From NCBI RefSeq assembly GCF_000737325.1, contig NZ_CP011125.1, positions 682,001-746,000 of the forward strand: a stretch of 64,000 bases of DNA. Reading direction: 5' to 3'. The notes under the pieces are model-generated. The model was not told the origin of the DNA and ran no database searches. It saw only the letters and a list, made by a program, of their open reading frames with translations. The translations under genes and the position numbers were made by a program. The DNA comes from Sandaracinus amylolyticus. GTDB lineage: Bacteria; Myxococcota_A; Polyangia; Polyangiales; Sandaracinaceae. Positions 8,130-40,891 of this stretch are shown one piece after another (within the stretch, counting starts at the first letter, position 1; the number at the start of each line of letters is the position of its first letter).

Positions 8130-8138
8130 CGCCGCTCC

Positions 8139-11084: not shown

Positions 11085-11319
11085 GACCCTCTCCGACTCG
11101 CGCAAGCGCATGCGCGCATCGGCTCCGGCTGCGCGCCGTTGCGTCGCCGTCAGCGCTCGCTCGCGGACGGGCTCCCTCGGCATGCGAACGCCTCTTCATC
11201 GGAGCGTCATGCGCGCCGTTGCTGCGCGCCGTTGAGGCACGGGCGTTGAACGATTCTCCGCGCAGCACGCAACGCCCGCGCGCGCGCCCCGATACGCCGG
11301 GCGACGACGAGGTGCCCCT

Positions 11320-16426: not shown

Positions 16427-17182
16427 ATGCTTCGAAAGCGACCGGTCATTCAGACGCTACAGGCACCTGTGGATGTCTCGGCAGCAACACGGGAGCGGGT
16501 CGAGCGAATTGTCACTGCCGCACGGCAGGAAATCGAGCTCGCAAACCATGACGGGGCGTTCCGATCGCTCGTCCGAGCACGAGATGACGCCGAGCACCGC
16601 GGAGCGGCGCGCGAGTCGATCGCACTGTCGATCGCGTTCGCGCATCTGCTCCTCGAGGAATCGGAGCTCGACGCGGCGCGCATCGAAGCCTTGTCCGCGG
16701 CGCTGCTCGCGCGGCGAGTCCGTGCCTTCGGCCTCGAAGCGCAGGCGCGGGTTGCGCTCGGCGCGGCGCACTTCGCCAACCACGATCCGGAAGCAGCGAT
16801 CGCGTCGTTAGTCGCGGCCGGCGAGATCGCATTGCGGTCCGAGATGTCGTCCTGCGCCATCGACGCGTTCCGTTGTGCTGCGCAGGTTCTCGCGTGGCTT
16901 GGGCGCGACGAGGACGCGCTCGACGCGCTGCTGAGCGCGCTCGCCCTCGCGGACCACACGCTGCCGGACGGCGGCAAGCCCGACCTCAGCGCCGCCGTCG
17001 AGGCGACCGTTGCGCTTTGCTTGTTGCACGGCCTCGAGGCCCAGGCCGAGTCGCTGGTGTCGCTGCTGGTCGAACTGCAGCAAGGAGCCGCGAGCCGCGT
17101 GCCGCAGTCGGGTGTGTTCGAGGCCGGCGCGCGTCCGACTCCCTCGCCGTGGAGCCCGACACCCTGGCCCACCCAGCTCTAA
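16427..17182 (+). CDS. Helical-repeat (TPR-like) protein
   Basis: A 251-residue protein, almost entirely helical and Ala/Leu-rich, with helix pairs of TPR length (LEAQARVALGAAHFANHDPEA; AAQVLAWLGRDEDALDALL). No signal peptide or transmembrane helix. The last ~25 residues are Pro-rich and probably unstructured. It is the last gene of the plus-strand cluster and its stop overlaps by 4 nt the stop of the convergent kinase gene. TPR proteins in T6SS cargo loci often act as adaptors; no specific partner can be named. Confidence 0.7.
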   Translation: MLRKRPVIQTLQAPVDVSAATRERVERIVTAARQEIELANHDGAFRSLVRARDDAEHRGAARESIALSIAFAHLLLEESELDAARIEALSAALLARRVRAFGLEAQARVALGAAHFANHDPEAAIASLVAAGEIALRSEMSSCAIDAFRCAAQVLAWLGRDEDALDALLSALALADHTLPDGGKPDLSAAVEATVALCLLHGLEAQAESLVSLLVELQQGAASRVPQSGVFEAGARPTPSPWSPTPWPTQL

Positions 17183-18147
17183 GGCGACGCGCGATGCGGC
17201 GGATCCGGACGCGTGAGCTCGCCTTCGGTCGGGATGGCCACGGGCGGCTTGGAAGCACGGACGCGGCGGGCGAGATCGCGGGCCGCGACGGCGGAGACCT
17301 GCATCGCGCCAAGTGCGTCGAGCACATCATCGGCGGTCGCGGTGCGCGCATGACGCTCCGTCGCGAGCAGGCCGTCAACGAGCGCAACGACGGGCTCAGG
17401 AAGATGCGGCGCGACCTCGCGGAGGTCGTGTCGACGCCCCTCGACGGTGTTGCGGAAAGTCGCGAGGTCGCTCAGTCCGTCGAACGGCCGCACGCCGCCT
17501 GAGAAGAGCTCGAAGAGAACGACGCCGAGCGCGAAGAGATCGGCGCGCCGGTCTTCGTGCATCCCGAGTGCCTGCTCGGGCGCCGTGTACGAAACCTTCC
17601 CTCGCGCGCCGCCGCTTTCGGTGCGCTCAGCCGCGTCGATCTTCGCGATGCCGAAGTCCGCGAGCTTCACCGCGCCGTCGTAGCTGATCAGTACGTTCGA
17701 CGGGCTCACGTCACGGTGCACGACGCGTGCTGGCGCGCCGTCCACGTGACGGAGCTCGTGTGCGTACGCGAGCGCCTTGCTAAGCTCCGCCGCGATGTAG
17801 AGAACCACGTCAACCGGGAGCGGCTCGCCGCTGGCGCGCATGCGATGAACGACAACGTCGAGGTCCACGCCGTCGACGAGCTCGAGCGCTTGCCACCACG
17901 TTCCAGCGTGGCAGCCGAAGTCATACAGCGAGACGACGTTCGGGTGCCGCAGGAGCGCCGCGAGCCGCGCCTCGTCCTGGAAGCGGCGAACGTACTGCGG
18001 GTCCTTTGCACGCGTCGCGAGCACACGTTTCAGACACACGCGTTGGACGAAGCCGGCGCGTCCGGAACGCTCCGCAACGAAAGTCTCGGCCATTCCACCT
18101 CGACCGAGTCGCGCGAGAAGTCGGAAGGGGCCGAAGGGCTCGTGCAT
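17179..18147 (-). CDS. Hanks-type Ser/Thr protein kinase
   Basis: Start set at ATG 18147 (MHEPFGPFRLLARLGRGGMAE); the open frame extends further upstream but without kinase sequence. All catalytic elements are present in 322 residues: Gly-rich loop LGRGGM, Lys in VCLKRV, HRDVSPSN catalytic loop, DFG, and the APEQ substrate loop. There is no transmembrane segment or sensory domain after the kinase fold, so it is a soluble kinase with a short basic/Pro-rich tail. It is 82 nt downstream of the CBASS effector gene on the same strand and convergent with the effector operon. It could belong to either. Kinases of this type are abundant in myxobacteria. Confidence 0.9.
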   Translation of the reverse strand: MHEPFGPFRLLARLGRGGMAETFVAERSGRAGFVQRVCLKRVLATRAKDPQYVRRFQDEARLAALLRHPNVVSLYDFGCHAGTWWQALELVDGVDLDVVVHRMRASGEPLPVDVVLYIAAELSKALAYAHELRHVDGAPARVVHRDVSPSNVLISYDGAVKLADFGIAKIDAAERTESGGARGKVSYTAPEQALGMHEDRRADLFALGVVLFELFSGGVRPFDGLSDLATFRNTVEGRRHDLREVAPHLPEPVVALVDGLLATERHARTATADDVLDALGAMQVSAVAARDLARRVRASKPPVAIPTEGELTRPDPPHRASP

Positions 18148-18229
18148 GACGCGAATCCTCGTGGGTCGTCTGTATGAACGACGGCGGAAGCTGCCTGGCG
18201 AACTGGTGCTCGCACCGCGGCAGGGTCCA

Positions 18230-19393
18230 TCAACCCAAATGCCGGGGCTGCGCGGCCGCATCAGGATCGTCGGTCATTAGCAGGCGCCACGAGTAGGGCC
18301 GCACACCTCCACGCCGGTAGTTGTAAGCGTAGACGCCGGGATGAACGGTATTTCGCACCTGACGACCAAGGGCGAATGACAGGCACATGGGTGTCGCCGC
18401 GAAGAGATGTACACGGCTGATGGAGTCAACGCGAGCGATGCGCTCCAGCGCCTCCCTGAACGTGCTCGAGTACGCTTCGATCTGCGTTCTACTCCGGACG
18501 ATGTCGAGTGCGGGCGCATCCACAGCGAGCCTCACGATGGGCATTTCGCCGACCGAGGAGACGATCTGGTGTGTCGTGACCGGGTAGCTTACGCCCACCG
18601 AGATCGCGACGTCACGCGTGTCGCCGAGATCGTCCGGTTGATGAACTTTCAGATCCGGGAACGGCGTCGTGGACTCCCCAAGCCACCGCCATACGTTTCC
18701 GTCGCGCTCTCGTTCGGCGTAGTGCACAGACATGCGTGTGCCGAGGAGGTGGCCCATGTGAATTGCTAAGGGGACGTGGGCAATGCCGTAGTACGCGAGT
18801 TCGACGTCAGGCACGCTCTCGAGATGCCCCCAAAGGGCGTTCCTCGCTCGCAGGTGCTCCACGACGACGGCACGCAGATCGACAGCGTTTTCACGCGCGC
18901 ACGGCGCGCGAACGTCAGCCACGACCTCGTGAACGTGGCGGAACAGAAGCGGCATCGAGCGCGCGAGAGAGCGATCGGGGATGAGCTCCATCGACCGGTG
19001 CAGGAGTGTGACGAACGCTGGCATCGCGTCGCGCTTCTTGGCGAGCTCGACCGCTTCGCGGGCACGCTTCTCCGCTTCGGATTTCCACTCGCGGAGCACG
19101 TCTGCACTGAACGGTGAGCTGTCCGCGTCCACGATTTCGTGGCAAGCGCAGCACAGCCAGATCCCGTTCGTCGCCGCACGGCGCTGCTCCGGCGTCAGCG
19201 TTTCGTCGTAGCGGGGCCCTCCCTTCGCTGCAGAGGTGATGTGACCCGCCTCCCCGACGCTGACGGACTTTGACGGGTCGGAGTGCGGTCCCGCGGTGAT
19301 CCGGCCACAACCCGGCTTCGAGCACACCGACGCGACTCGGCGCTCGAGCTGGCGCTTCACGTCGGGCGTGAAGTCGTCCCTGTTGCGGCCCAT
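18230..19393 (-). CDS. cap5: CBASS effector: HNH nuclease fused to SAVED domain (Cap5-like)
   Basis: A 387-residue protein. Residues ~20-95 form a beta-beta-alpha-metal HNH domain: Cys24/Cys29, then H51 in AGHITS, N76 in TNGIWL, and C81/C82/C84-H85. Residues ~130-380 match the SAVED domain that senses cyclic oligonucleotides (AISVGVSYPVTTHQIVSS, and the C-terminal HLFAATPMCLSFALGRQ). Family members degrade DNA when bound to a second messenger made by the CD-NTase. The ATG at 19393 shares its A with the TAA stop of the CD-NTase, proving co-translation. Length agrees with Cap5 (~390 residues). Confidence 0.93.
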   Translation of the reverse strand: MGRNRDDFTPDVKRQLERRVASVCSKPGCGRITAGPHSDPSKSVSVGEAGHITSAAKGGPRYDETLTPEQRRAATNGIWLCCACHEIVDADSSPFSADVLREWKSEAEKRAREAVELAKKRDAMPAFVTLLHRSMELIPDRSLARSMPLLFRHVHEVVADVRAPCARENAVDLRAVVVEHLRARNALWGHLESVPDVELAYYGIAHVPLAIHMGHLLGTRMSVHYAERERDGNVWRWLGESTTPFPDLKVHQPDDLGDTRDVAISVGVSYPVTTHQIVSSVGEMPIVRLAVDAPALDIVRSRTQIEAYSSTFREALERIARVDSISRVHLFAATPMCLSFALGRQVRNTVHPGVYAYNYRRGGVRPYSWRLLMTDDPDAAAQPRHLG

Positions 19394-20673
19394 TAGGCGA
19401 CGCGCACTTTGCGGTTGGCTGTCGCGATCACCCGTCCGTTCCGCACGATCTCGCAGCGCATCGTATGGTCGCCGCGGAAGCGAGTATGACGCCAGGTGAC
19501 GAGGTCGCGGCCTTCTCGAGTGTGACCTAGGTCGGCGGCAGCTTCGGCCTCGTCGCCTTCGTTCTTCACCGTCCAGCGGACGACGTCGTCGCGCTTGAGC
19601 TCGTGCGCGACCTCGAAGCGGAGCCACATTCCTTTTGGGAGCGGCGGCTGCGATGACCGGTACGAAGCCTCTCGAAGAGGTCCGTTCTCGTGTTGGGCCA
19701 CGCGGATCGTGAGGTTCACCGCGGTGGTCGCATCGGTCTTCGTGTCCTGCTCGGTGACGAAGAAGTCGTGCCGAAAGACAGAGTTCCACGCCGTTCGCGC
19801 GGTCGCCTCATCGCAATTGCGATCGTCGAGCACGTCGAGTTTGGGCAGGAGATCGTCCAGGCGCTTCTGCAACCGACGCACCTGTGCCTCGGTCTGCGGT
19901 TTCCCTGTGAGCTCCTGGGCCGCGTCGACGGGGCTGAAGACGCGCTGGTTCTTCACGAGCCGATCGCGTAGCGCGATCAACGTCTTTCGCAGGGAGACGT
20001 CGTCCCGCGACGGGTCGTGCTGGTACACCTCCGTGACGAGGGTCGTCGCAATCATGCCGCCCGGTAGGCTCCATGATCGACGCGACGCGCAGAATCGCTT
20101 CACGAACCGGACGATTCGGCGGAGCTGCCCCCGTTCGACATCGATTAGCCAGAACGGACTGAGCGCGTTCACCCGGTCGGTGAACCACTGGGTCACCTCC
20201 GAGGGATCGCGGGCAGTCCAGTCCGCACCGGCGTGCTCCAATCCCTTCGCGGTGCGCCGGTAGACGGCGAGATCCACGTGGTGGCCCTCCGCATACCACA
20301 CAGTGACAGCGTTCGTACGGGCCTCGGGATCACGAAGAAATGTCGCGCCGGACTGGAGCAGTGCCTCGGCGACTCGCTTTCGTGAATCCAATGCCGAGGC
20401 TGGGAGCACGGACTCGTCGAAGATCACTCCGGTGTCGATGTCGTAGTCATCGTCCGGATGCTGGTTGAGCGTGTGCATCGCATAGCTGCCCTGGTCGAGA
20501 TGACTCTCGAAGGTCGCTTTCGACGCGCCGCGAATGGGACCCAGCTTCTCCAGGCCACTTTTCAGCCGGTCGAGGTTGGTGTCGCGCAGCTTCGCCAGCC
20601 TCGCGCGGCCATCTCGACCGAGCCGCAGCTTCTCGTTGTAGAACCGGTTCAGGAGCTTGCTTGCGTCGTACAT
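19393..20673 (-). CDS. cdnTase: CD-NTase (cGAS/DncV-like) second-messenger synthase of CBASS
   Basis: A 426-residue protein starting at ATG 20673 behind GAGAGG. The nucleotidyltransferase active site is complete: GSYAMHT (62-68), D78-x-D80 in DYDIDTG, and third carboxylate D134 in HHVDLAVY. Residues ~180-320 are the helical SMODS-type core. Residues ~345-426 resemble the AGS-C ligand-sensor-like domain often appended to such enzymes (WTVKNEGDEAEAAADLGHTREG). On phage infection such enzymes make cyclic di- or trinucleotides that activate the neighbouring HNH-SAVED effector. No Cap2/Cap3 or HORMA/TRIP13 genes accompany it, so it is a minimal type I-like CBASS. It lies 115 nt after the Res-like gene on the same strand. 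Confidence 0.93.
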   Translation of the reverse strand: MYDASKLLNRFYNEKLRLGRDGRARLAKLRDTNLDRLKSGLEKLGPIRGASKATFESHLDQGSYAMHTLNQHPDDDYDIDTGVIFDESVLPASALDSRKRVAEALLQSGATFLRDPEARTNAVTVWYAEGHHVDLAVYRRTAKGLEHAGADWTARDPSEVTQWFTDRVNALSPFWLIDVERGQLRRIVRFVKRFCASRRSWSLPGGMIATTLVTEVYQHDPSRDDVSLRKTLIALRDRLVKNQRVFSPVDAAQELTGKPQTEAQVRRLQKRLDDLLPKLDVLDDRNCDEATARTAWNSVFRHDFFVTEQDTKTDATTAVNLTIRVAQHENGPLREASYRSSQPPLPKGMWLRFEVAHELKRDDVVRWTVKNEGDEAEAAADLGHTREGRDLVTWRHTRFRGDHTMRCEIVRNGRVIATANRKVRVA

Positions 20674-20788
20674 CGTCGTCGCCTCTCGCGAGTGTTCGAC
20701 GGAACCATGCCGCGGGACTGACAGCACAAGACGATCCCGACACGTCGATACGCGTACCAAGGTGATCCCGGCGCGGAACTCGGCGGGT

Positions 20789-23700
20789 CTAGTGACTCGC
20801 TCTCAGATACTCGATCGTCTCCCACATCACGCGACAGTCGACCTCGTTGTAACGCTCGACCTCGCGTGCGAGATCGATATCGCGCAGCGCGCACCCACGC
20901 TCTCGCGCCTCGCGCTGTGCCGACCACGCCGCGACCATCGCGCCGAGCCCGTCCGTCGGTCCGTCGGACCACGACGTCTTGACGAGGCCGTGCGTGTGCA
21001 GCGCCTTCGCGATCGCTTTGAGGCCGAATCCGAGCGCACCGCGCACCACCACCGGCTCGGCCTTTATCACGCGGTTCAGGAAGTCGAACCACTCGGGCAC
21101 CGGCCACTCGGCGCTCGGGTGCCGACGGCGCGCGGAATTGTACGCGGTCTCGAGGTTCGACACTTCGGCGGGCGACCAGTGGAAGACGCGTGGTGCGCCC
21201 TTCGTGCCACGGCGGGCCTGGACCGCGCGCATGTGGTCAAACCACGCGGTCAGCACGCGTGCCTCGCTCTCCGCGTCGAGCGCGTCTGCGGTGAAGCAGC
21301 GGAACACCCAGTCACCGTTCTCGATGTGACCGCACCCGACCATGAAGATCAGCGGCTGGCCGCCGCGCTCGGGGAGCTTCTCGAAATCGTCGTCGAGATC
21401 ACTGATAGTCTCGAAGTCGACGAAGAACTCGAGCTCACTCGGGCGACGCCACTCGCCCTCCGCGACCTGAACCCTTGCGGGTCGAACCGGAGGTCCCGAC
21501 GCATCGCGGTTGACCTCGAGCAGAGCGTCGAAGACAGGCTTGGTCTTCGGGCCCTTGAGCCCGACATCTTCGGCCGTGAGGCGCTTGTCGTCCCACGCGC
21601 GGATCTTCTTCTCGATCGCCGCCGCGCGGCGGTCGACGCCGACCTGCCAGAGCAGCGTGAGATCCTTCGTCTCGCTCGCAATCCTCCGCTTCGCGCCGTG
21701 CCACGGCGCGTCGAGCGTGTTCTTCATGTTGGGTCGCAGGGCGTCGTCAGAGATGAGCGGCAGCACGCTCCACTCGGAGCCGCGATCACGCACCTTGCGC
21801 ACCCACTGCACGGCGGCTTCGACCTCGTCGGCGAGGCTCCGCCCCTTCGCGAGCCGGCCGTCCTGCGGGACCCACGCCAGACGGTCCATGCACGAGCGCC
21901 CGCGCGCCTTGCCCTGTTCCCAGCCCCGGCCGAGCAAGAACGACGAGGGCGGCAGGAAGCCCTGAGCGCGTCCGAGCGCGCGATTGTAGAGGAAGAGCTG
22001 CGCCTTGTAGGCGCGGGCCGAGCCCTCGTTGCCGAGCTCGCCGGACTCGAGCAGGTGCAGCGTCGTGAACTTCGCGTCGACGACCCGGTAGTGCCAGGGC
22101 CGCTCTCCGAGCCCGGGAGCCCTCACGCTCGCGACGCTCGGCGCGTCGGGCCGCGTCGCATCGAACCACCCGGCGTCGAGCTCGAGCGCGTCGGGGAAAA
22201 GGCGCTCGAGCACGTCGCTGCGGACGAGCAGGTCGGGCGCGCCGTAGGTGCGGGTCTCGAGATCGTGGAGCACGGCCTCGTGAATCACCTCCACGCCATC
22301 TCGCATCGCCGCGAGTGTCTCCTCGGCCTTGCGCGGATCGGCAGTGTGTTCGGGACTCCTGGAGATGCGCACCACGTTCGCGCGCTGCGAGATCAGGCGC
22401 ACCACCGCCTGCTCGAACTCGCGGCTCTTGGTCATTACGAAGCGCGTGAAGTCGGTTCGCGGATCGAAACCCGGCCTCGCGTCGTCACGCTCGAAGCCCT
22501 TCTCCACGCCGTAGAGATCGAGCCAGTCGAGCAGCGGATCCGCGAGCATCCAGCTCCGGGTCCGAGTCGCGGCGACCCAGTCCTCCCAGCCAGTGCGGTT
22601 CGCGTCGGTCCGCGCCGGCCGAGCGGTCTCGGCGTACGCGATCCGCAGCTCGTCATCGGCTTCCAGCGTTCGCGCCGGCGCGGGCTCCACGAGCTCGAAG
22701 CGGGACGGCTGCGCGATCCCCCGGAGCAGCGCCGGGATCGCGGACGCGTCCTCGAGCACTTCATAGCGCCAGCGGCCGAACCCGCCGTGGTGGTTGATCG
22801 CCTTTACCCAGCGCTGAGCCGCGCTCTCCTTCGTCTTCGCGTCCTCGTTCCGCCAGCCCTTGGTCTCGAGGATGACCGTGACCTCGCCGCCGTCGTCGGC
22901 GCGTACGCGCACCAAGAAGTCGGGCAGGTACGAGCGCGAGACCATCTCGTCGCCGCTCGCGCGGATCTCGTACGGGATCACGAAGCCGAGCCGGTCGTTC
23001 TTCACGTACGAGACGACGACGTCCGCCAGGTCTGCGTGCTCCAGGTAGAGCATCGCCTGACCTTCAAGCCCGCTGTCGACGACGAGGTGCGAGACGTGGC
23101 TCCGGGTCGTCGGATGCGCGGTCTTCGTGGTGCGGAACTGCACATCCTCGGTCGAGCCAATCGGTCGGTGTCGTTCGATGCGCGGCAACAGAGGCGTCTC
23201 GCCGAGATCGTCGTCGGGCTCGATCGCGTCGAGGATCCGCGTGCGCACCTTCTCGGCGTATTTCTCGAGCGCGACCTCCTCGCGGCGCGCCCCGCCGATC
23301 GCGACGAGGCGTTTGTCGAACACGTCCTCGACGATCGTGAGCACCTGCGGGAAGAGGACCTGCGCCTGACCGGGTGACCACGTGCTCTCGCCATCTCCGG
23401 CGTGCGCACGGGTCATCTGCCGCACGATGTCGGCGGCGATGCGGAACGCGGTCTTCTGCAGGCGATGCTCTTCGTGGAACGGAAGACGGGTGAACGTCTC
23501 CAGCTCCTCCATCACTCCCACGAACTTCCGGCCGCCCTCGGTGGGCAGGCTGGGCGCGACCTGGGTCAGTGTCGTCTCGACACTCGGCTCGATCGTGAGC
23601 GATGGGATGCTCTCCACGTCGCAGCGCACGCGCTGCTTCACGTCGAGCACGTAACCCTCGACGCGCGGGAACTCGATGGCCAGGTGCTTCCGCGCCGGGT

Positions 23701-25663
23701 CCGCCTGCACCAGCGTCGAGGGTTGAGGCGGCTTGGGCGGACGGGTGCCGGTGCCCTGCACCGGGATGACCTCGAACGGCACGCCGAAGATGTCGGCGTA
23801 CTCCGGCTCGAGCATCCCGTCGTCGTTCACCTCGTAGCTCATGCGGCGCAGCGCGCGCCCGACAACCTGCTCGCAGAGAAGCTGCGACGAGAACGCGCGG
23901 AGGCCGAGGATCTGCGTGACGTTCTGCGCGTCCCAGCCCTCGGTGAGCATCCCGACGCTCACGACGCACCGGACGTGCTTGCCGGGCGGCTCGGCGAGCT
24001 GCGCGCGCGCCTCGTCGGGCAGGTTCTGCACCGAGGCCGGCAGCACGCTGCCCTCCCACTGCGCCTTGCCGACCGTGGCGACCTTCAGGCGCAGGAGCTG
24101 CTCCTGCACTTTCTTGCTCGCCCCGCCGGTCTCGGACTCCGCTTCCTTCAGCACCGACGTGTCGATCTGGAACGACACGTCACCCGCGAGCTCGCCGAGG
24201 ACGTAGCCGGCCCGCACGTGCTCGGCGATCACCTGCGCGATCTTCGTGTTCGCCGCGACGACGATCATCGCGGGCGGCACCGGCTGCCCCGACGCGCGGA
24301 ACTCCGCCAGCGTCTCCTGCCACTTGCCGGCGAGCATCGACAGCGCGCCCTGCGCTTCCCGCCACACCGCGTCCGGGCTCGGCGCCGCTCGCGCTCCGCC
24401 GCGCTCCGCGGGGCTGAGCTTTTCGAGCACGGTGCGCCAGAGGTGGAAGTACTGCGGATCGGGCTTGCCTGAGTCGTCGCGCACCGGGATGCGCGGCACC
24501 TTCGTGATTCCGCTCTCGATCGCGTCGACGAGCGAGAAGTCGCTCACGATCCACGGCAGCGGCTCGCCCTCGGGGCGACCCGAGCCCTTGAGCGCGAAGG
24601 GTGTCGCCGAGAGGTCGATGCAGAGCTTGATGCCGGGCTGCTTCGGGCCCTTGCCGAGCACCTTGTTGATGCGGTCGAGCCCGCCGACCCAGACCGTCGC
24701 CTCCTCGGCCTCGTCCTTCGCCTCGTCGCGCTCGTCGCGCGAGAGCCCCTCGAGCTCGGTCTGCTGGTCCTCGATCGGCTTCGCGGGGCGCCACGCGTGG
24801 TGCGCCTCGTCGTTGAGCACGAGGATCTGCTGGGCGCCGCGCAGCTTCTTCAGCACGCGCCGCACGAACGCGGCGTCGCTCTCCACGCCGCGCTGCACGA
24901 CGCCGCGTTTGCCCTCGTCGGAGCGCACGAGGAACTCGTGCCAGTTCGAGATCTGTACCTTGCCGCGCGCGAGCAGCTCGCGATAGCCGCGGGGCACGAG
25001 GTCGAAGCGCTCGTAGTAGCTGCCGGCGACGTTGGGATCGAGGACCCCGAGCCGGTCCTTCACCGTGAGGTTCGGCGCGACGACGAGGATCGCGTCGGTG
25101 AAGCGCCCGTCGGTCTTGTTGGTGAGCCTGTTCAGGATCGACCACGCGGCGAGCATCGCCATCACGGTCGTCTTGCCCGACCCGGTCGCCATCTTCGTGC
25201 AGTACCGAGTGAGCGGCAGGTAGCCCTTCGCGACGCTCTCGGGATCGACCGGGACGTCGGGCTCGATGCGGATGCCCTGGCGATCCGCCTCCGATGCCTC
25301 GACCAGGTAAATGATCGTCTCAGCGGCCTCGCGCTGGCAGAAGAAGATCGGGCGCCGGGCGGGGTCGTTCCAGTGGTCGAGGAGGTCGCGAGTGGTGCGG
25401 CTGACGTTGGGGTAGTTGCGCGCGCGCCACTCCTTCACTCGCGCTCGGATGTCGTTGACCGTGTGGAGCAGGATCTGCTGCTGCTGCGCGTGCGCGACGT
25501 CGCCCGCGCGCTCGGTTCGCGCGAGCCCGGTGTAGCCCGCGGGGCGCCGCCCCTCTCCCACGCGCGCGCTGGGCCCGGAGAAGTCCCAGTAGCGCGTGGG
25601 CTCGTGGAAGGGGCTGTTCAGGATCGGGTTGTCGACCGCATTGCGCGGCAGCTCGTGACTCAC
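20789..25663 (-). CDS. Res-like SF2 helicase with three nuclease-like modules
   Basis: A 1624-residue protein. The helicase has Walker A MATGSGKTT (158-166), DEAHHAW (285-291), SAT (352-354) and motif VI VGRALRR (601-607). Next comes a type III Res nuclease: PDF at ~914 and ETK at 933-935. A second PD-(D/E)XK follows: PDLL at ~1143 and VVDAKF at ~1194-1199, with YKAQLFLYNRAL. The last ~215 residues resemble the YprB/RNase_H_2 exonuclease-like domain: VDFETIS (1415-1421) and YNEVDCRV (1605-1612). The last two modules together look like a TM0106-type RecB family protein fused onto Res. The gene starts 7 nt after the methyltransferase stop, so they act as a pair. Domain fusion is seen; activities are inferred. 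Confidence 0.9.
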   Translation of the reverse strand: MSHELPRNAVDNPILNSPFHEPTRYWDFSGPSARVGEGRRPAGYTGLARTERAGDVAHAQQQQILLHTVNDIRARVKEWRARNYPNVSRTTRDLLDHWNDPARRPIFFCQREAAETIIYLVEASEADRQGIRIEPDVPVDPESVAKGYLPLTRYCTKMATGSGKTTVMAMLAAWSILNRLTNKTDGRFTDAILVVAPNLTVKDRLGVLDPNVAGSYYERFDLVPRGYRELLARGKVQISNWHEFLVRSDEGKRGVVQRGVESDAAFVRRVLKKLRGAQQILVLNDEAHHAWRPAKPIEDQQTELEGLSRDERDEAKDEAEEATVWVGGLDRINKVLGKGPKQPGIKLCIDLSATPFALKGSGRPEGEPLPWIVSDFSLVDAIESGITKVPRIPVRDDSGKPDPQYFHLWRTVLEKLSPAERGGARAAPSPDAVWREAQGALSMLAGKWQETLAEFRASGQPVPPAMIVVAANTKIAQVIAEHVRAGYVLGELAGDVSFQIDTSVLKEAESETGGASKKVQEQLLRLKVATVGKAQWEGSVLPASVQNLPDEARAQLAEPPGKHVRCVVSVGMLTEGWDAQNVTQILGLRAFSSQLLCEQVVGRALRRMSYEVNDDGMLEPEYADIFGVPFEVIPVQGTGTRPPKPPQPSTLVQADPARKHLAIEFPRVEGYVLDVKQRVRCDVESIPSLTIEPSVETTLTQVAPSLPTEGGRKFVGVMEELETFTRLPFHEEHRLQKTAFRIAADIVRQMTRAHAGDGESTWSPGQAQVLFPQVLTIVEDVFDKRLVAIGGARREEVALEKYAEKVRTRILDAIEPDDDLGETPLLPRIERHRPIGSTEDVQFRTTKTAHPTTRSHVSHLVVDSGLEGQAMLYLEHADLADVVVSYVKNDRLGFVIPYEIRASGDEMVSRSYLPDFLVRVRADDGGEVTVILETKGWRNEDAKTKESAAQRWVKAINHHGGFGRWRYEVLEDASAIPALLRGIAQPSRFELVEPAPARTLEADDELRIAYAETARPARTDANRTGWEDWVAATRTRSWMLADPLLDWLDLYGVEKGFERDDARPGFDPRTDFTRFVMTKSREFEQAVVRLISQRANVVRISRSPEHTADPRKAEETLAAMRDGVEVIHEAVLHDLETRTYGAPDLLVRSDVLERLFPDALELDAGWFDATRPDAPSVASVRAPGLGERPWHYRVVDAKFTTLHLLESGELGNEGSARAYKAQLFLYNRALGRAQGFLPPSSFLLGRGWEQGKARGRSCMDRLAWVPQDGRLAKGRSLADEVEAAVQWVRKVRDRGSEWSVLPLISDDALRPNMKNTLDAPWHGAKRRIASETKDLTLLWQVGVDRRAAAIEKKIRAWDDKRLTAEDVGLKGPKTKPVFDALLEVNRDASGPPVRPARVQVAEGEWRRPSELEFFVDFETISDLDDDFEKLPERGGQPLIFMVGCGHIENGDWVFRCFTADALDAESEARVLTAWFDHMRAVQARRGTKGAPRVFHWSPAEVSNLETAYNSARRRHPSAEWPVPEWFDFLNRVIKAEPVVVRGALGFGLKAIAKALHTHGLVKTSWSDGPTDGLGAMVAAWSAQREARERGCALRDIDLAREVERYNEVDCRVMWETIEYLRASH

Positions 25664-25670
25664 GGGCGCC

Positions 25671-28556
25671 TCACTTCTTCAGCGCGCGGCGCGCGTCGAC
25701 GATCTTGATGACCTCGTTGCCGCGATCGTCGATGACCTTGACCGCGACCTTGTGCCCCGGCTTGAAAGGCAGAGACCGCGTGGTGCGGAGCTGGGCGAAC
25801 TTGTCCTCGTCGATCGCGCCCTTGAGTGCCTTCTGGAGCTTCTCCCAGGCGTTCGCGCCGCCGCCGGGGAAGAGCGCCTGCGAAACGCAGAAGCTCTTCC
25901 CGTCGTAGTCGTGGTCGACCAAGATCGCCGCCGCGCCGTCGCCCTTCGCGCTCGAGGTGAAGCCGGTGGTCGGGTCGTAGAGGTCGATGCCGACCAGTTC
26001 GACCGACACCAGCGAGCCGCCGTTCTCGGGGTGCACCCGCACGTCGGGTGCGCCGAAGACGGCGAAGAGCTGATCGGTCTTTCGCTTCTTGAGCAGGTCG
26101 CCGACCAGGATGTCGGGCGCGGCGTGGGCGAACATGACCTCGCGCCCCGGTACGCCCGCGTCGATCATCTTGCGAGCCTCGGGGTCGCACGCGAATCCCG
26201 CGAACACCAGGACGTCGGCGCCGCGGGTCTCGGCAATCGCGCCGAGCACCTGCGTCGGCGTGACCGGTCCGTGCCGGGGTCCGAACGAGATCGCGAAGGT
26301 GCGGGGATCGCCTTCGGCGTCCGAGCCGCCCTCGGCGTGGAACCACTCGTAGTTGCCCTTGACCGTGCGGAGCGCGGGGAACCGGATGCGCTTGTTTCCC
26401 GGCAGCACGATGCCGGTCTGGCGCAGCAGCTCGACCATCGTCGACAGGTAGTCGGTGACCGCATCCGAGAAGTGCCCCGGCACCGCCGCGGACTTGGACA
26501 CCGGCCCGCCGGCGTCGCGCTGCGTGTCCTCCATCGACGGCAGCGGGATCGCCTCGACCGTGAACGGCCCCGAGACGCGCACCCGTTTCTTGTCCTCGAA
26601 GGGCTGGTCGTAGAGCGTCTCCTGCTCCGCGCTCTCGCGGATGACCCGATCGATCTCCTCCTTGGTCTTGCAGGCATCGATCTTCGGATTCTGCGCGATC
26701 GACTTGAGCGTGATGTGAGGGACGGTCTTGTACTTGAATCCGTCGCGCACTCGATTCGAGCGGAGCTCGTAGTAGGGGAACTTCGCTGTGATGAGCCGCT
26801 GTCGAGCGAGCGAGAGCGCGACGCGGGACGTGTCGCAGGTAATCCAGCGACGTCCCCACTGCTCGGCCACGTAGGCAGTGGTCCCGGAGCCGCAGGTCGG
26901 GTCGAGGACTAGATCACCAGGGTCGGTGGTCATCAGGATGCAGCGCGCGATCGCCTTCGTACCAGTCTGGACGACGTAGAGCTTCGCGTCACCGAAACCA
27001 CTTCCCCGAGTGTCGTCCCAGATGTCGTTCCGCGGCTTGAACGGGAAGTCGTCAAGATAACGAATGAACGTCAGCGTGTTCCCCACAGGCAGCAAGCGGC
27101 CAGCCCTCTGGAGGCGGTCCAATCCTGCCTTGTCGGATCGAAAAGTACCGGCTCCTGGAGTGAAGCGCTTCCCGTCGAGGTAGTACTCGCGAAGGTCATT
27201 TCCCGAAGCAGGCCGCTGATTGGTCAGCGGGTTGGGCCGATACGCACGCGCACGTGGAGGCAGGGCATCGGTGCCGTCGGCCTCTCGGTCGGTCATTCGG
27301 CGTCGCGTACCGTCCGCGAGCTCAACGAATCGAAGGTTGTCATCGTCTACAACCGATCGAGGCTCGAAGACCGGACGGTATTTGACTTTGCCCCTGTCGC
27401 GGGCGAACCAGAGTAGAACGTCGTAAGTGTTATCGAGCAGCTGCCCGCCCTTTCCAGTGGTCTTGCGGAAGACGACTTGGCTGACGAAGTTCTCTGCGCC
27501 GAACACTTCGTCTAGTACGAACCGCACACGATGTACGTTCTCATCGCTAATCTGAACGAAAAGACTGCCCGCTTCGTTGAGCAGGTCCTTGGCGACGAGG
27601 AAGCGATCACGGAGATAGCTGAGATAGCTATGAATCCCGAGCTCCCAAGTGTCGCGATACGCCTGGACCTGCTCGGGCTCGCGGGTGAGACTCGCGTCGT
27701 CGCCGTCCTTCACGTCTCTCCGTGAAATCGACGGCTGAAAGTTCGAGTTGAACTTCACGCCATACGGCGGGTCCATGAAAATGCACTGGACCTGACCGGC
27801 CATGTTCTCGCGCTCGAGCAGCGAGTTGATCACCAGCAGCGAGTCGCCGAGGATCATCCGGTTCGACCAGCCGACCTCGTGCCCGTAGAAGTCGATCTCC
27901 TTCGACGACGGGAGCTCGGGCTTCGCGAACAGGTTGAGCTGACTCTCCTCCTGCTCCTCGCGCTTCACCGCCCGGAGGATCGCCTGGGTCGAGACGCGCT
28001 CGTGAATGTGCAGGCTGACGGTGTCGATCTCGAACTTGGCGTGCTCCTCCTTGCCGGCCCAGACGAGCTGCGGATCGAGGTGGGGGTCGTACGCGTATTC
28101 CTTCTTCCGCTTGGCGGGTAGGCGCTCGAACTCCACCAGGCCAGCGGGCGGGTTGTTCTTGCGCTTCTCGTCGTGCCGGTACTCGCCGACTTCGCCCTCG
28201 AGAGAGGTCTGGTTGCCGCCCGCGCGCTTCTTCTTCGTCGCCATCCCGCTCTCGTCCCTCTCGCCACCACGTCCCGCGTCGCTGCTCTCGATGGTGAGCT
28301 TGCCGATCAGGCGATCGACGAGGATGCCCTTTTCGCGCCCCCGCTCGTCGAGGCCCAACGCCCGACACAGATCTTTCAGCCTGTCGCGTGGCAACTCGAC
28401 GAGCTCGACCGCAAGGTCCACGCGACGTGCCCTCGCGATGCCGTCCACTAGGCGATCCCGCACGCGGCGGTCGGACACCTCGATGCCGTGCGCGTCCACG
28501 ATCCGCAGCAGCTCGTCTCGTGCGAGCTGGGACAGCACGTCGCGCTTGCTCACCAT
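25671..28556 (-). CDS. SAP-containing beta-class DNA methyltransferase (type III Mod-like)
   Basis: Start set at ATG 28556; the frame is open further upstream but reads as Arg/Ser-rich noise. Of 961 residues, ~1-85 hold two tandem SAP-like helix-extended-loop-helix units (LARDELLRIVDAHGIEVSD; LPRDRLKDLCRALGLD) expected to bind DNA. Motif IV DPPYG at 262-266 precedes motif I LDPTCGSGTT at 551-560, the order of beta-class N6-adenine methyltransferases. Residues ~600-961 form a long C-terminal part, probably target recognition and Res docking. It protects host DNA from the Res-like partner 7 nt downstream. Upstream lies the PD-(D/E)XK-TOPRIM gene 52 nt away. Confidence 0.9.
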   Translation of the reverse strand: MVSKRDVLSQLARDELLRIVDAHGIEVSDRRVRDRLVDGIARARRVDLAVELVELPRDRLKDLCRALGLDERGREKGILVDRLIGKLTIESSDAGRGGERDESGMATKKKRAGGNQTSLEGEVGEYRHDEKRKNNPPAGLVEFERLPAKRKKEYAYDPHLDPQLVWAGKEEHAKFEIDTVSLHIHERVSTQAILRAVKREEQEESQLNLFAKPELPSSKEIDFYGHEVGWSNRMILGDSLLVINSLLERENMAGQVQCIFMDPPYGVKFNSNFQPSISRRDVKDGDDASLTREPEQVQAYRDTWELGIHSYLSYLRDRFLVAKDLLNEAGSLFVQISDENVHRVRFVLDEVFGAENFVSQVVFRKTTGKGGQLLDNTYDVLLWFARDRGKVKYRPVFEPRSVVDDDNLRFVELADGTRRRMTDREADGTDALPPRARAYRPNPLTNQRPASGNDLREYYLDGKRFTPGAGTFRSDKAGLDRLQRAGRLLPVGNTLTFIRYLDDFPFKPRNDIWDDTRGSGFGDAKLYVVQTGTKAIARCILMTTDPGDLVLDPTCGSGTTAYVAEQWGRRWITCDTSRVALSLARQRLITAKFPYYELRSNRVRDGFKYKTVPHITLKSIAQNPKIDACKTKEEIDRVIRESAEQETLYDQPFEDKKRVRVSGPFTVEAIPLPSMEDTQRDAGGPVSKSAAVPGHFSDAVTDYLSTMVELLRQTGIVLPGNKRIRFPALRTVKGNYEWFHAEGGSDAEGDPRTFAISFGPRHGPVTPTQVLGAIAETRGADVLVFAGFACDPEARKMIDAGVPGREVMFAHAAPDILVGDLLKKRKTDQLFAVFGAPDVRVHPENGGSLVSVELVGIDLYDPTTGFTSSAKGDGAAAILVDHDYDGKSFCVSQALFPGGGANAWEKLQKALKGAIDEDKFAQLRTTRSLPFKPGHKVAVKVIDDRGNEVIKIVDARRALKK

Positions 28557-28608
28557 GCGGCGAGAATGCCGTAGGGACGACCGACTGCGAAAGCGTGAAC
28601 GTCTCACC

Positions 28609-29811
28609 TCAGGGGTGACGCACCGCCCCGGAAGGACCGACATGGCTGGCGACGAACGCGAACAGCGCCTCGAGCTGCGGGTCCTGCGCGATCTTCTCGA
28701 TGGTCGAGGGCGACAACCTCGAGAAAAACTGGCCGCGCCCGGTTCCACCAAGCCGGTGTTCGAGCACGCGCCGAGGCCTATCGGTCGCGAGCTCCTCCTC
28801 GTTCGAATCAAGCGGCGGTTCACCAGGAAAAGCCAGCGCGAACGCGTCCGGTCGAAGAACGAGGGCCTCGAGCTCCGGTGCGAGCACCACGACGAGCGAC
28901 ATGTCGTCGCCGGCTGCGAGCTGCAGTGCGTCCTCTGCCTCGGCCTTCTGGAGGGCGATACCCTCCGCCTCACGCGTGTCCGCGTCGAACATCAGCACAA
29001 CGGCCGTTCTGCCGACGGCCGCCAACGATCGCGCAAGCGCCTGCGCCGCCTCTTTGCCGCGTGCGGGTACGACGCGATAAGCGGAACGATCGAACCGAGT
29101 ATCGAGCAATTTCGTCAGCAGCACGCGGTCGTTCTCCCCCTCGACGATCACGATCACGCGTGCGCCACTGACTACATCGACCGGTGGGCCGGGCTCCAGC
29201 GGGTCGGGCGACACCGACGCGAGCTCGTGAGAACCCACGAAGAAGTCCGGCAGTCCGTGCTCTATCGCCACCCGCAGCTTCATCTCGAGCGCTCTGGCGA
29301 AGCCGTTCTCCGCGCTGAGCGCCCAGCTGATGTCCTCCGCGTTCCACAGAAGAATCGGGTGCTCGATCATGAAATGCGCGGCGACTCGGGCCGACGCCGT
29401 GAAGCCCCGCTTGCTGAAGACGGATCCGATGCAGAAGCGAGGGCGCCGCAGCAGCTGATTCCTGAGCTTTGACAGCGACTCCGAGTTCTGTGGGGTCGTT
29501 CGATCCTTCGCCTCGCAGATGCAGCGGATCTCCCCGACGCGCACCATCCCGTCGATCTGCTCGAGCTCGAGATTGTTGCGAGGTCCACGGAGTGCCGAAG
29601 TACTCCCGAGACGGACCGAGTAGGGATACGTGACCTGCGCTCCGTCTAACTCGAATGCTCGCAGAACAAGGTGCTCGAGGGCCTTGCCTTTCGCCCAAGC
29701 AGTCTCCTTGCCTGCGAGAATGTCGCTCCATAATGCCTGGAGCTCGGGACGCTGCATGCCCCTGGCAGCCTTCGCCAGCTTGCTCGCGGTGGATTGCTCT
29801 TGCGACGACAT
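28609..29811 (-). CDS. PD-(D/E)XK nuclease - TOPRIM fusion protein
   Basis: A 400-residue protein with two recognisable halves. The N-terminal ~190 residues match a restriction-endonuclease-like fold: helix E46 (GKALEHLVLRAF), D87 in EQIDG, and E100-A-K102 in ICEAKD. This is the full D-ExK catalytic set, similar to Mrr-type nucleases. Residues ~216-330 match TOPRIM: VIVEGENDR with E224, and LMFDAD with D276/D278, preceded by VVPARGKEAA as in OLD-family TOPRIMs. The C-terminal ~70 residues are unassigned. It sits inside the defence operon between the HEPN-like and methyltransferase genes. I know of no named defence protein with this exact pairing. Metal-dependent DNA cleavage is inferred from both folds. 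Confidence 0.8.
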   Translation of the reverse strand: MSSQEQSTASKLAKAARGMQRPELQALWSDILAGKETAWAKGKALEHLVLRAFELDGAQVTYPYSVRLGSTSALRGPRNNLELEQIDGMVRVGEIRCICEAKDRTTPQNSESLSKLRNQLLRRPRFCIGSVFSKRGFTASARVAAHFMIEHPILLWNAEDISWALSAENGFARALEMKLRVAIEHGLPDFFVGSHELASVSPDPLEPGPPVDVVSGARVIVIVEGENDRVLLTKLLDTRFDRSAYRVVPARGKEAAQALARSLAAVGRTAVVLMFDADTREAEGIALQKAEAEDALQLAAGDDMSLVVVLAPELEALVLRPDAFALAFPGEPPLDSNEEELATDRPRRVLEHRLGGTGRGQFFSRLSPSTIEKIAQDPQLEALFAFVASHVGPSGAVRHP

Positions 29812-29823
29812 CGAGAGGCTCCG

Positions 29824-30267
29824 TTAAGTTCGTGGCACGTGAGGGCGTAGCCAATCCAACACAGTTCGCATCACTCGTTTCGCGACGACGTCATCGACGC
29901 GATCTGGCTGATGAGCCGCCTCATTGCGGAGATCGACGAGCCGTTGCAGTCGCGAGGTTGTCTTCACGCGGCCATCGATGGCTATCGCCCGAACGAGTGG
30001 CTCGGACGAATCGTGAGCCCCAGCCGCGATCAGCACGCGAAGGTACGAGCCCGCACCCTTCGTGACCCCCGCTCGAGCGAGCTCCCGTTCGAGCGTTGTG
30101 CCCGTCGCGCGACAGGCTAGGGATGCGGCGACGCGGAGCAGGCGTTCGAGCTCCGTACCAGCGAGATTGTAACCGCCAACGCGCGTGGTCCGCGGCGCAT
30201 CAGCCCTCGCGACCTCACGCTCGAGGCGCTCGATCAGCGCTCTCGCTGCCGTGTCCAGCTCGCTCAT
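29824..30267 (-). CDS. HEPN-like small protein (RX4H motif)
   Basis: A 147-residue all-helical protein. Its C-terminal segment has VDLRNEAAHQPD, where R114 and H119 match the RX4-6H catalytic motif of HEPN ribonucleases, followed by a final amphipathic helix. The start overlaps the stop of the SAP-kinase gene (4 nt), and it ends 12 nt before the PD-(D/E)XK-TOPRIM gene, so it is embedded in the operon. HEPN proteins in defence loci often act as toxins or sensors held in check by a partner. Here the partner could be the overlapping kinase. RNase activity is inferred from the motif alone; an inactive structural HEPN is possible. Confidence 0.65.
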   Translation of the reverse strand: MSELDTAARALIERLEREVARADAPRTTRVGGYNLAGTELERLLRVAASLACRATGTTLERELARAGVTKGAGSYLRVLIAAGAHDSSEPLVRAIAIDGRVKTTSRLQRLVDLRNEAAHQPDRVDDVVAKRVMRTVLDWLRPHVPRT

Positions 30268-31658
30268 CGCCCTGCCTCCAGCGCGTCGATGAATGCGCCG
30301 CAGGCTGGAAACCGTTGGCGCGGGTCCGTGTGGAGTGCGCGATATACCGCATCACGCTGTGAGCTCGAGAGCATATCAGCGTATCCCGGACTGCGAATCC
30401 ACGCGTCGACTCCGTGCAGAATCGCGCACAGGACGCGCGCGAGGCTGAACTGGTCGGATGCGGAGACGAGCCTTCCCGTACGCACCTCCGGGGCGCTGAA
30501 ATGATCGCTCTGGCCGAGGATCGACGTCGCGTGACGAGTCTCGCCTGCTGAGTGCCGGACGAGGGTCGCCGAAATCCCTAGGTCCGCGAGTCGCACGCGC
30601 CCACGGTCATCGATGAGGATGTTCCCTGCGCTGACGTCGCCGTGGACTCGTTCGTGCTCATGCATAGCGTCGAGCCCCGTGGCTGCCTGTCGCATGATCG
30701 CTAGCGCATCGCGCCAGAGCGCCTGCCGCGTCGCGTAGCGCTTCGCGAGCGACTCGCCTCCGTGCTCCATCAGAACGAACGCGCCGAACGTTTCGTCGTG
30801 CTCGTCGTGGAGGTAGCGACACACGTTGCGGTGCGTGATCTCGAGCCCTGCCGCGAACTCGCGGCGCAGAATGTCCACGCATTCAGGGTACGGGAATTTC
30901 GCCACCAGCAATCGCGCAGCGTCGGAGCGCTCATCGCGGACTTCGAACGTGGTCGCCATGCCACCGCGGCCTAGCTCCCTCGTGATGCGGTACCGCCGCG
31001 CAACCAGGACGCCCGCTTTGAGAACCAGCGGGTCCGTCGCGCGCGTCTGGCTTCCATTTGGCGTCGTACCCGACGTTCGCAAGGCTCGCGGCACGGCGGT
31101 GCTCGTTCCGTTTGGAGCGGCCGCATGATTCGCGGAGCTGTCGAGGTCCTCGTTCTCAGCGCGCTGGTGCGTGCCGAGGTCGTCGACCAGCTCGTCCCAC
31201 ACGTTCGAGATCAGCGTGTTTCCGTGCATCCCCTCGATCGCATCGAGAACGTCATCCGCTTCGACGAGGAGGATCTCGGCGTAACGCGCCAACAGGCTGC
31301 GATCCTCGCGAACGTCGGCGACGGAGTAATCACCGATCGCCTCCATTCGACGGCGTAGCCTCGTGCGGTCGAAGCGGACGCACTGCGCGAGCTCTTCTCG
31401 GACCTCATCCCAGCTCTTCCGCCGGGAGCCACCCAGCTCCTCGATGAGCGAGTTCCAGTCCGACGTTCCCCAGGGGCCTTGCGCCGACACGAGCTCGCTG
31501 AGGTCCCGTTGCACTCGAGCTGCGATGCGCGACGCGAGCTTGGCCTTCGTGCCGGATGTCGGTAGGTCGTAGTAGTCCGCGAACGTCCTGAGCTCCACGA
31601 GCGAGAGCTGATCGAGGATCATCCGCACCGCGCTCTTCCGGGGCATCACCCCGATCAT
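30264..31658 (-). CDS. Ser/Thr kinase with N-terminal SAP domain
   Basis: A 464-residue protein (ATG at 31658; a second in-frame ATG at 31646 gives MPRKS). Residues ~9-45 form a SAP-like DNA-binding unit (LSLVELRTFADYYDLPTSGTK). Residues ~60-165 are helical and unassigned, then a Ser/Thr-rich linker. The kinase domain spans ~220-460: Gly loop LGRGGMA, K254, catalytic loop HGDVSAGN (HGD instead of HRD; D341 and N346 kept), DLG with D359, and SAPE. Catalysis therefore looks possible. It heads the minus-strand operon and starts ~50 bp from the divergent helicase gene. The same type of SAP unit occurs in the operon methyltransferase, suggesting both gather on the same DNA. Confidence 0.85.
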   Translation of the reverse strand: MIGVMPRKSAVRMILDQLSLVELRTFADYYDLPTSGTKAKLASRIAARVQRDLSELVSAQGPWGTSDWNSLIEELGGSRRKSWDEVREELAQCVRFDRTRLRRRMEAIGDYSVADVREDRSLLARYAEILLVEADDVLDAIEGMHGNTLISNVWDELVDDLGTHQRAENEDLDSSANHAAAPNGTSTAVPRALRTSGTTPNGSQTRATDPLVLKAGVLVARRYRITRELGRGGMATTFEVRDERSDAARLLVAKFPYPECVDILRREFAAGLEITHRNVCRYLHDEHDETFGAFVLMEHGGESLAKRYATRQALWRDALAIMRQAATGLDAMHEHERVHGDVSAGNILIDDRGRVRLADLGISATLVRHSAGETRHATSILGQSDHFSAPEVRTGRLVSASDQFSLARVLCAILHGVDAWIRSPGYADMLSSSQRDAVYRALHTDPRQRFPACGAFIDALEAGR

Positions 31659-31710
31659 ACCGATCTCGCCCAGCTTGCGTCAGCGGTCGGCGTTCGCCGA
31701 TGCTCTTCGC

Positions 31711-34700
31711 ATGGCGATGCACATCAGCGCCCGAGTGGCGTGGCATGACGATGGGTGGAACGGTCACATCTGTCGCAACCCGGCCGGGAACACGTTCTGC
31801 GTCGGGAGCCGGTCGTACCCTGGTGAGTCGATCGCCGAAGAGCGCGACCTAGAGTGGGAGACTGCGAACGCCGGGCGTCCATGCGAGAGCGTCGACGCGA
31901 TGCCACCGTGCAGCTGGAGCATCAACGCTTTCGGCAAGAAGCGCCTGCGCGCATACGCAGACGCCCCGGACTTCTTTGCGTCGGGCACGCCACGTCGAGA
32001 ATGGGATGTTCCTGCGTCTACGGTGTGCCTGTGGCCGTATGAGGAGATGTACGGCCAGGAGCTTCGTGACGGGAAACGGTACGACCACGCCAAGAGGCTC
32101 GCCCGTGCGCGGGAGTACTTCGCCCAGATCGAGCCACAACGGAGTTTGGTCTTCTACTACGCCAACTACAGCAACCCATTCAGTGAGGACGAAGCGCCGC
32201 GATACGTGGTGGTCGGGATTTCACGGGTGAGGGAGATCGGGCCCGAGCTCTTCTACGAGGGTGCCGCTGAGAAGGACAAAGAGCGTTACGGCGGAGCGTT
32301 CGTGTGGTCTCGGAACGTGACCTCAGCTTATCCGGACGAAGGACTGCGTCTTCCGTACCACCGGTATCGTCGCGACCGAGAAGCGCTCGACCGTTTCGTC
32401 GTCGTGCCCGACAATCCGAGGCTCTGTAAATACGGTACCCGCGCGTTCAGCGATGACGACGCGCTCGGACTCGTAGAGCAGCTCCTGGCTGCCGTCCGCG
32501 AGCTTCGAGCGATGGGCGATGACAGCGAAGACTGGCGCGTCCGCGAGGATTGGCTGCACGCCATTTCCGGGGAGCTGTGGCGCGACCGTGGCTTGTATCC
32601 TGGGCTTCCTGCAGTCCTCGAGTTTCTCGGCGCGGCACCTGCAATCGAGCCACTGCGTGCGTTACCTGCCGCGAAACACTCCACCTTCGCCGAGGGCGTG
32701 TTCGCCGCGCTGGAAGTCGGGCGCGGGGGCAAGCCATTCGGGCTCGACGAGGCGACGCTCAAGCGCGCGAGCCGGCGATTTCGACTCCTGGACGATGGCG
32801 CTCGATCCGTCGCCCAGCGCATCTTGCCGCGCCTGCAGATCACGCGCGATCACGTCGACCGAATCGTAGGCGAGAACCGTGAGGAGCATGGGCTCCCCGA
32901 GAACCTCGACCACATCGCGCAGGACCCGTACGTGCTTTGTGAGCGCTTCATCGGAGACGATCCCGATGACAGGATCACGTGGGCCACGGTCGACCGCGCG
33001 GTGTTGCCGTCGCCGGACCTCGGCGGGGCGCCGCTCTCCGACGTCGGTCCCGACGATGCGCGACGCTTTCGCGCGCTTCTCGCGGACGCACTCAGGCGCA
33101 ACACGTCCGACACGTTCGTGCCGGTCGACCATCTGATCTCCCAGGTGAACGACCGCCTCGCGAAGCTTCCGGCGTGGAAGAGTCACGCATTCAGCTCGCG
33201 CTACCTCGAAGTCGATCGCGAAGTGATAGCTGCTTCGCTGGTCCAGCGAGAGATCGAGGGTGCGAAGTACGTCTACCTCGAGAGTGCCTGGCGAGACGAG
33301 CGAGCGATCGAAGACTACTTTAGGTTCTTCGCCGGCGGTCCGGACGTGCCGCTGCGCCGGCCTGTCACCGAGGCGCACTGGCGCAATTGGCTGCATCGGT
33401 CCGACAGCGTGCTGGCGGGGCTCGAGGGGGACGATTACCGCACCGCGATCGACGGACAGATCGCTTTGTGTCAGCGCCTGTTCCGACGGCCCCTCGCGTG
33501 CATCGCCGGCGCCGCCGGAACGGGCAAGACGACTGTCGTTCGTGCGATCGTAGACGCGGTTCGCCTCGCTCACGGCGACGGCTCTCCCGTTCTCGCCCTT
33601 GCGCCGACGGGGAAGGCCGCCGATCGACTGCGTGAGGTACTCGGCACGCGCTCTGGAGTGCGCACAGAAACCGTGCACGCGTTTCTCGCACGGAATGGAT
33701 GGCTGCGCGACAACATGACTGTGCGCCCTCAAGGGCGCACACCGGACACGAGCTGCGAGACCGTCATCATCGACGAGTGCTCGATGCTGGACCTGGAGGT
33801 GCTCGCAACGACGCTCCGAGCGCTCGACCGGAACGCAGTACGTCGAATGATTCTCGTCGGAGATCCCAACCAGCTGCCCCCGATCGGACGCGGCCGTTCG
33901 TTCGCCGACATCGTCGAGTGGCTCACGGCCGAGCATCCGGACTGCATCGAGACGCTACAGCAGAACCTGAGGCAACTCGAGGGACGAGCGACCGGGCGCG
34001 GAACGGGGATTGTCGACCTTGCGCAGGCCTTCATGGGGGCGACCCTCGCCGCTGTAAAGGACGAGTCGAGCGGTATTGCGACCGAGGAGATGCTCCGCCG
34101 CGTCCAATTGGGAGGCGACGTCGACGCCGACCTGCGGGTGATCTACTACGACGACCCGCAGTCACTCGCGTCACTTCTGCTCGCGCGGATCGACGCTGAC
34201 CTGACTGAGCTATGGCCCGACGGCGCTGATCCTCCGACCTACAAGCTCTGGCAAAAAGGCTTCGAGCAGGGTCCGCAGGCTTGGCAGATCCTGACTCCTA
34301 CGCGCGGTGAGATGCACGGGATCGAGGCGCTCAATCGCGAGTGTCAAGCACACGTCACATCGGGTATACGAGATCGAGCTGGTGCACTCGATGGAATCAA
34401 GCTCTTCGATAAGGTCATCCAGATCAGAAACCGCACGAGGTCACGGCCGCTCTACGCGTGGGACCAGACGCAGAGATGCGTCGTCGCGACAGAAGTGTTC
34501 AACGGCGAGATCGGCCTGGCCTCGATACACTCGTTCGACTCCGAAGAGTGGAAAAAGAGGTTCTTCCGGCTGAAGCGGATTCAGGTCTCGTTCGCGCGCA
34601 AACCTCACCTTCGCGTCTCGTACGGTGAGGACACCGGAAAGACTCCCGATGGTCGATGGGCTCCGCGCGAGAAGGTCGAGGACAACCTGGAGCTCGGGTA

Positions 34701-40775: not shown

Positions 40776-40891
40776 GCGGAAACCCCTGCGCGGCGTTCTA
40801 AGCCCGTATCCTCGCACGAGGTTGCTCGCGCGGGAATACGAGTGGACGCGCGACTAGAGCCGCGGCTCCGAGACGGAGCGCGAGTTCTCGT

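Follow-up and report, generated by a model that had tools for sequence, protein, structure and literature searches.

Why should a protein kinase, a HEPN-like protein and a nuclease-TOPRIM fusion stand directly ahead of a restriction pair and a cyclic oligonucleotide-based antiphage signalling system (CBASS)? The window analysed here, a 64,000-nucleotide stretch of the soil bacterium Sandaracinus amylolyticus (contig NZ_CP011125.1, positions 682001-746000; the genome is one contig of 10,327,335 bases), carries these genes as a same-strand run of seven, and a first-pass annotation proposed that the first five, g1 to g5, form an undescribed defence system. Among the sampled Myxococcota genomes and plasmids we found no second locus with the five together, so within the limits of that sampling we reject the idea of a conserved five-gene set, the annotation itself having named rare co-occurrence elsewhere as grounds for refuting it; what recurs is smaller units, each without the others: g1 with g2, g3, and g4 with g5. 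We favour, with moderate confidence, a composite defence operon in which a restriction core is preceded by probable backup effectors (g1-g3) and followed by CBASS. The seven genes are:

30264-31658, minus strand: g1, Ser/Thr protein kinase of 464 aa with a SAP-like unit at its N-terminus
29824-30267, minus strand: g2, HEPN-like protein of 147 aa with the motif R114-N-x3-H119
28609-29811, minus strand: g3, fusion of an Mrr-like PD-(D/E)XK nuclease and an OLD-like TOPRIM, 400 aa
25671-28556, minus strand: g4, type III-like DNA methyltransferase (Mod), 961 aa
20789-25663, minus strand: g5, BPTD_3080-family restriction subunit (Res) over residues 10-980 of 1624, with a C-terminal extension of about 630 residues
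19393-20673, minus strand: g6, CBASS CD-NTase, DncV-like, with AGS_C
18230-19393, minus strand: g7, CBASS effector, HNH-SAVED

All seven open reading frames and the spacings first listed for them were reproduced; recomputed from g1 to g7, the spacings are -4, 12, 52, 7, 115 and -1 nt. The overlaps and short gaps within g1-g5 suggest one transcript, which g6 and g7 may share. The analysis bears out the earlier reading of a defence operon with the domain types it listed.

The restriction core, g4 and g5, is of a known kind that joins a type III-like Mod to a Res of the BPTD_3080 family. The NCBIfam model NF046055 (BPTD_3080 family restriction endonuclease) matches g5 over residues 10-980 with 940 bits, where the cut-off is 800; g5 also has a Pfam ResIII match at 1e-5, and g4 matches Pfam N6_N4_Mtase (4e-27) and PADLOC MTase_III (8e-174) and has EcoP15I Mod among its relatives in the PDB. 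The two genes adjoin on the same strand with a 7-nt gap, and a Mod relative stands beside Res in most of the loci examined. The suggestion that the set belongs to no named system thus holds for the whole, which matches none, and fails for g4 and g5, which fall into a named family (NF046055), although our literature search found no paper naming BPTD_3080. The pair is widespread: 27 of 282 Myxococcota genomes, the window's own included, match the BPTD_3080-type Res at E<=0.001, 13 of the 282 besides the window's own match this part of g5 at E<1e-40, and 44 plasmid records match g5, the matches ending by about residue 1020 in the 40 listed of 44. The start of g4 is uncertain. Relatives have no counterpart of its first 104 residues, which contain a sub-threshold SAP match. 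The conserved part opens with an in-frame ATG at 28244, and a start there would remove the SAP-like N-terminus.

Beyond the BPTD_3080 region, g5 was thought to carry extra nuclease modules, which we could not confirm. Its last ~630 residues have no match in Pfam (E<=1), PHROGs, PDB sequences or plasmids; a viral-contig scan with the C-terminus gave no matches, and searches of the bacterium's own genome with RNase_H_2 and DUF2779 gave none inside the window. The model predicted for the last 240 residues reached a predicted local distance difference test score (pLDDT) of 41 and was not used. Because neither searches nor model gave support, a RecB-like or RNase H-like reading of this region (YRVVDAKF; EFFVDFET ... 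YNEVDCRVMWE) stays a by-eye one. Separately, a 137-aa open reading frame in genome G262 (locus L051, 9153-9566) shares 64% identity with the final 107 residues of g5; it lies among cytosine methyltransferase, HNH-like and Vsr-like genes and is probably a relic of a g5-type C-terminal extension.

What accompanies this restriction pair elsewhere? We examined 19 Mod/Res loci, 13 from Myxococcota and 6 from plasmids; four of the 13 Myxococcota contigs are shorter than 6.5 kb, and part of the surroundings of those loci is therefore missing. Between Mod and Res we found HEC-01A and HEC-01B (413 and 214 bits; L043), a GmrSD_N protein (L048), an AAA_21 (OLD-like) ATPase (L042), a split Dsr1 on the opposite strand (L041) and, in Thermus, DUF3800. 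Beside the pair stand PDC-M38A with a DUF3226 protein (L040) and, in Shinella, ZacB with ZacC. Relatives of g2, of g3 and of the SAP part of g1 occur at none of the 13 Myxococcota and none of the 6 plasmid loci, g2 matches no plasmid record at all, and one plasmid locus has a kinase about 6 kb off. The window fits this variable-cargo pattern, with different cargo. The BPTD_3080 pair seems to be a chassis that acquires varied effector modules (OLD/TOPRIM, SIR2, GmrSD, ZacBC, and here kinase-HEPN and nuclease-TOPRIM), an idea relevant to the question of what bacteria keep in reserve when a phage blocks restriction.

Of the cargo in the window, g3 is, to judge by its relatives, the fused form of a two-gene module inherited independently of Mod/Res. 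Its OLD-like TOPRIM matches PF20469 at 8e-6, above the cut-off. Over its N-terminal half g3 shares 40% identity with proteins of Leptolyngbya and Rhizobium, which in turn match Mrr_cat (7e-9 and 1e-5), and the C-terminal half matches the next gene in those loci (37% over 78 aa, E 3e-8, in Rhizobium) as well as a small TOPRIM-like gene in the myxobacterium G057 (26%, E 3e-4). In all three organisms nuclease and TOPRIM are separate genes, either overlapping or adjoining, and we saw no Mod/Res near these loci. A viral-contig scan with g3 returned no matches.

The kinase-HEPN pair is a recurrent module in related bacteria, separate from g3-g5, and is the novel part of the locus. A genome of the same family (G285, JAFLCL010000109; L055/L080) carries it in the absence of g3-g5, the two genes again overlapping by 4 nt and g1 being 36% and g2 41% identical; an MmeI-type methyltransferase lies past this pair on the opposite strand. 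A genome-contig scan with the N-terminus of g1 found L080 only, using two strict peptide patterns that distant relatives may escape. A HEPN profile built from four sequences and searched in 183 Polyangiales genomes matched in 16, and in 15 of the 16 HEPN-family loci a kinase is adjacent (flanks of at most 1.5 kb on each side) or fused. The expected share is about 9% (range 7-10%), taken from kinase density, for which the search scores about 100 matches at most and first-look candidates set an upper bound. For comparison, 39 loci retrieved by other queries include 2 with a kinase, both times as the matched protein itself.

These loci are arranged in several ways. The kinase precedes the HEPN gene with a 4-nt overlap in the window, L101 and L110; the order is reversed in L102 and L112; the two are divergent in L103-L109 and L111; and they are fused in L113/L117 and L115/L118. 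Kinase N-termini are SAP-like in the window and L080 and helix-turn-helix (HTH)-like in L116, L117 and L118. All four seeds of the profile came from loci already known to adjoin a kinase, L080 itself having been found through its kinase; the seed loci are for that reason circular evidence, and the seeds may bias the profile toward kinase-linked members. Leaving out seeds and their genus-mates, a kinase is present in 7 of 8 clusters (binomial probability about 6e-7), and with one whole family merged as well in 5 of 6 (about 5e-5). Three HEPN-like matches, L114, L128 and L129, lack a kinase, and L128 and L129 look like false matches. The profile was run within this phylum, where a 377-genome search gave only two weak matches outside Polyangiales, probably false.

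Some features of the relatives are worth recording. The fused HTH-kinase-HEPN genes (L117, 7651-11146; L118, 7043-10989) are each followed by a DUF3800-like gene, a call made by eye in both cases with a sub-threshold Pfam match in L117, and in L118 a GmrSD-like gene lies on the other side. The N-terminal unit of g1 combines SAP with a W...RRKS(W/F/Y) motif. Weak matches to this unit stand ahead of other enzymes in L082/L126 (G054) and L085/L127 (G102), the carriers being a DEAD-type helicase twice and a protein of uncertain type once, and the unit may be a shared targeting tag.

Is g2 a HEPN protein? It has no Pfam match above cut-off, and weak profile matches point to Las1, RiboL-PSP, Swt1 and DUF4145. 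An AlphaFold2 model from two input sequences (pLDDT 89.4; predicted template modelling score 0.86) finds HepT chains as its best Foldseek matches at probability 1.00 and E 0.05, a result that helical bundles may give by chance, and structural comparison by VIA gives Z 9.0 with HepT and 8.9 with AF_0298, again a level that such bundles can reach by chance. Since fold scores of this kind can be fortuitous, the assignment needs the fold, the RNxxxH motif and the weak matches to several families together. The Rx4-6H pattern is present in g2 as R114-N-x3-H119, and the relatives read retain it, apart from L110/L116. The kinase g1 matches Pkinase at 5.5e-19 and SAP at 7e-4, below the Pfam threshold, and has intact HGD...N and DLG motifs.

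How might these parts work together? Mod would methylate host sites, and Res, predicted to be an ATP-driven enzyme of the superfamily 2 type that includes a PD-(D/E)XK-like domain, would cut unmethylated DNA. The kinase-HEPN pair and g3 would be independently inherited backup or guard effectors placed before this core, g2 being most likely an RNase that the DNA-binding kinase g1 controls by phosphorylating it. They would step in once restriction has been overcome by phage DNA or by an anti-restriction protein, in the manner of PrrC at EcoprrI or of PARIS facing Ocr. HEPN RNases occur in restriction operons (PMC3710099), and HEPN and TOPRIM backup effectors occur at BREX (bacteriophage exclusion) loci, with PARIS responding to Ocr (PMC12839542); it is by analogy with this theme that we propose g1-g3 as guard effectors. 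That the SAP unit senses DNA, that g1 phosphorylates g2, that g2 is an RNase and that restriction failure is the trigger are likewise what we infer. More tentatively, the pair could be an undescribed module in which a DNA-binding kinase, with SAP or tandem HTH, controls a HEPN RNase, in some cases within a single chain, as an independent bacterial counterpart of IRE1/RNase L, mounted here on a restriction system so that failure of restriction leads to RNA cleavage. With such a unit, protein phosphorylation would join the known controls of HEPN RNases. Our literature search, with most subscription papers outside its reach, found no description of a bacterial kinase-HEPN pair; fusions of AbiJ N-terminal domains to other domains, protein kinases included, are mentioned in PMC3710099, as are kinase-KEN fusions in eukaryotes.

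Several points weigh against the backup-effector proposal. Joint action of g1-g3 with the restriction pair would follow from an operon layout whose combination was seen once, the functions of g1-g5 are predicted, the HEPN assignment of g2 draws on a predicted structure, one motif and weak profile matches, and L110/L116 lack the motif histidine. A rival reading is neutral stacking, in which complete, unrelated modules collected in a defence island and each acts alone, the short gaps reflecting no more than compact same-strand insertion. Every module is indeed found alone elsewhere, the island is crowded (a PDC-S68 RecD-like protein, a UG22-type reverse transcriptase, an OLD-like ATPase), and its guanine-plus-cytosine content is about 65%, against 72-75% over most of the right part of the window; along the window the values are mostly 63-70% up to 44 kb and 70-75% past that point. 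However, the tight packing of g1-g5 suggests a single transcript, and the presence of cargo inside the Mod/Res pair of several relatives hints at something beyond random piling; we regard stacking as possible, yet rather doubtful. That tight packing is also what one obligate five-gene machine would show, and kinase and methyltransferase are combined in BREX type 2/Pgl and in the methylation-associated defence system (MADS) too. Such a machine is nonetheless improbable, given that no sampled genome or plasmid repeats the set and that matches to known kinase-methyltransferase systems fall far under their cut-offs: PglW scores 31 bits against 990, MAD6 83 of 460 on g1, and MAD4 20 of 160 on g3, so the locus qualifies as neither BREX type 2/Pgl nor MADS. 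With the composite operon as our preferred reading, two ideas replace the proposed five-gene system, the restriction pair as a chassis and the kinase-HEPN unit.

CBASS does look like an appended unit, as first proposed. The DncV-like g6 with AGS_C stays below the cut-off of the NCBIfam cGAS equivalog (96 of 150 bits), and g7 matches SAVED at 2e-38 (Pfam) and PADLOC SAVED_HNH at 2e-43, which places a CD-NTase and an effector in one operon, the defining arrangement of CBASS. A second kinase (17179-18261, probable start 18147) resembles an ordinary myxobacterial kinase. Divergent from g1 lies a RecD-like superfamily 1 helicase (31675-35313, plus strand, probable start 31711 or 31717) that scores 1600 bits for PDC-S68, a candidate defence family. 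An IS21-type transposase with an IstB-like helper (35725-37799, minus) separates the island's halves, and the far half holds two further candidate defence genes of the same island, an OLD/NsnB-like ATPase (38973-40817, minus; 236 bits) and a reverse transcriptase near UG22 (41177-42778, minus; 317 bits). On the other flank (2080-11183, minus) lie genes for a VgrG of type VI secretion and for a protein with RHS repeats that matches PAAR weakly; they are possibly a type VI secretion effector cluster adjoining the island.

The nearest known system is the BPTD_3080 restriction endonuclease (NF046055) with its Mod: g4 and g5 agree with many relatives in pairing, order and strand, whereas those relatives lack the ~630-residue extension of g5 and the SAP-like N-terminus of g4 and carry other cargo. 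BREX type 2/Pgl and MADS share with g1-g5 a kinase and a methyltransferase in one defence locus, but the matches to the PglW and MAD profiles lie far under the cut-offs. In PrrC-EcoprrI and PARIS (AriA/AriB) an RNase or TOPRIM effector is tied to restriction or anti-restriction (PMC3710099, PMC12839542); no PrrC- or AriA-type ATPase is found among g1-g5, and the coupling in the window is putative. The predicted fold of g2 resembles HepT, and HepT/MntA (HEPN/MNT), a toxin-antitoxin system, likewise joins two genes, one for a HEPN protein and one for its potential modifying enzyme, although the partner there is an adenylyltransferase and here a protein kinase, g2 being at most a putative toxin. 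IRE1 and RNase L place a Ser/Thr kinase and then a HEPN-type RNase in one chain, the domain layout also seen in L117 and L118; those proteins are eukaryotic, whereas the bacterial forms have SAP or HTH N-termini and are separate genes in the window; the comparison drawn here is one of layout.

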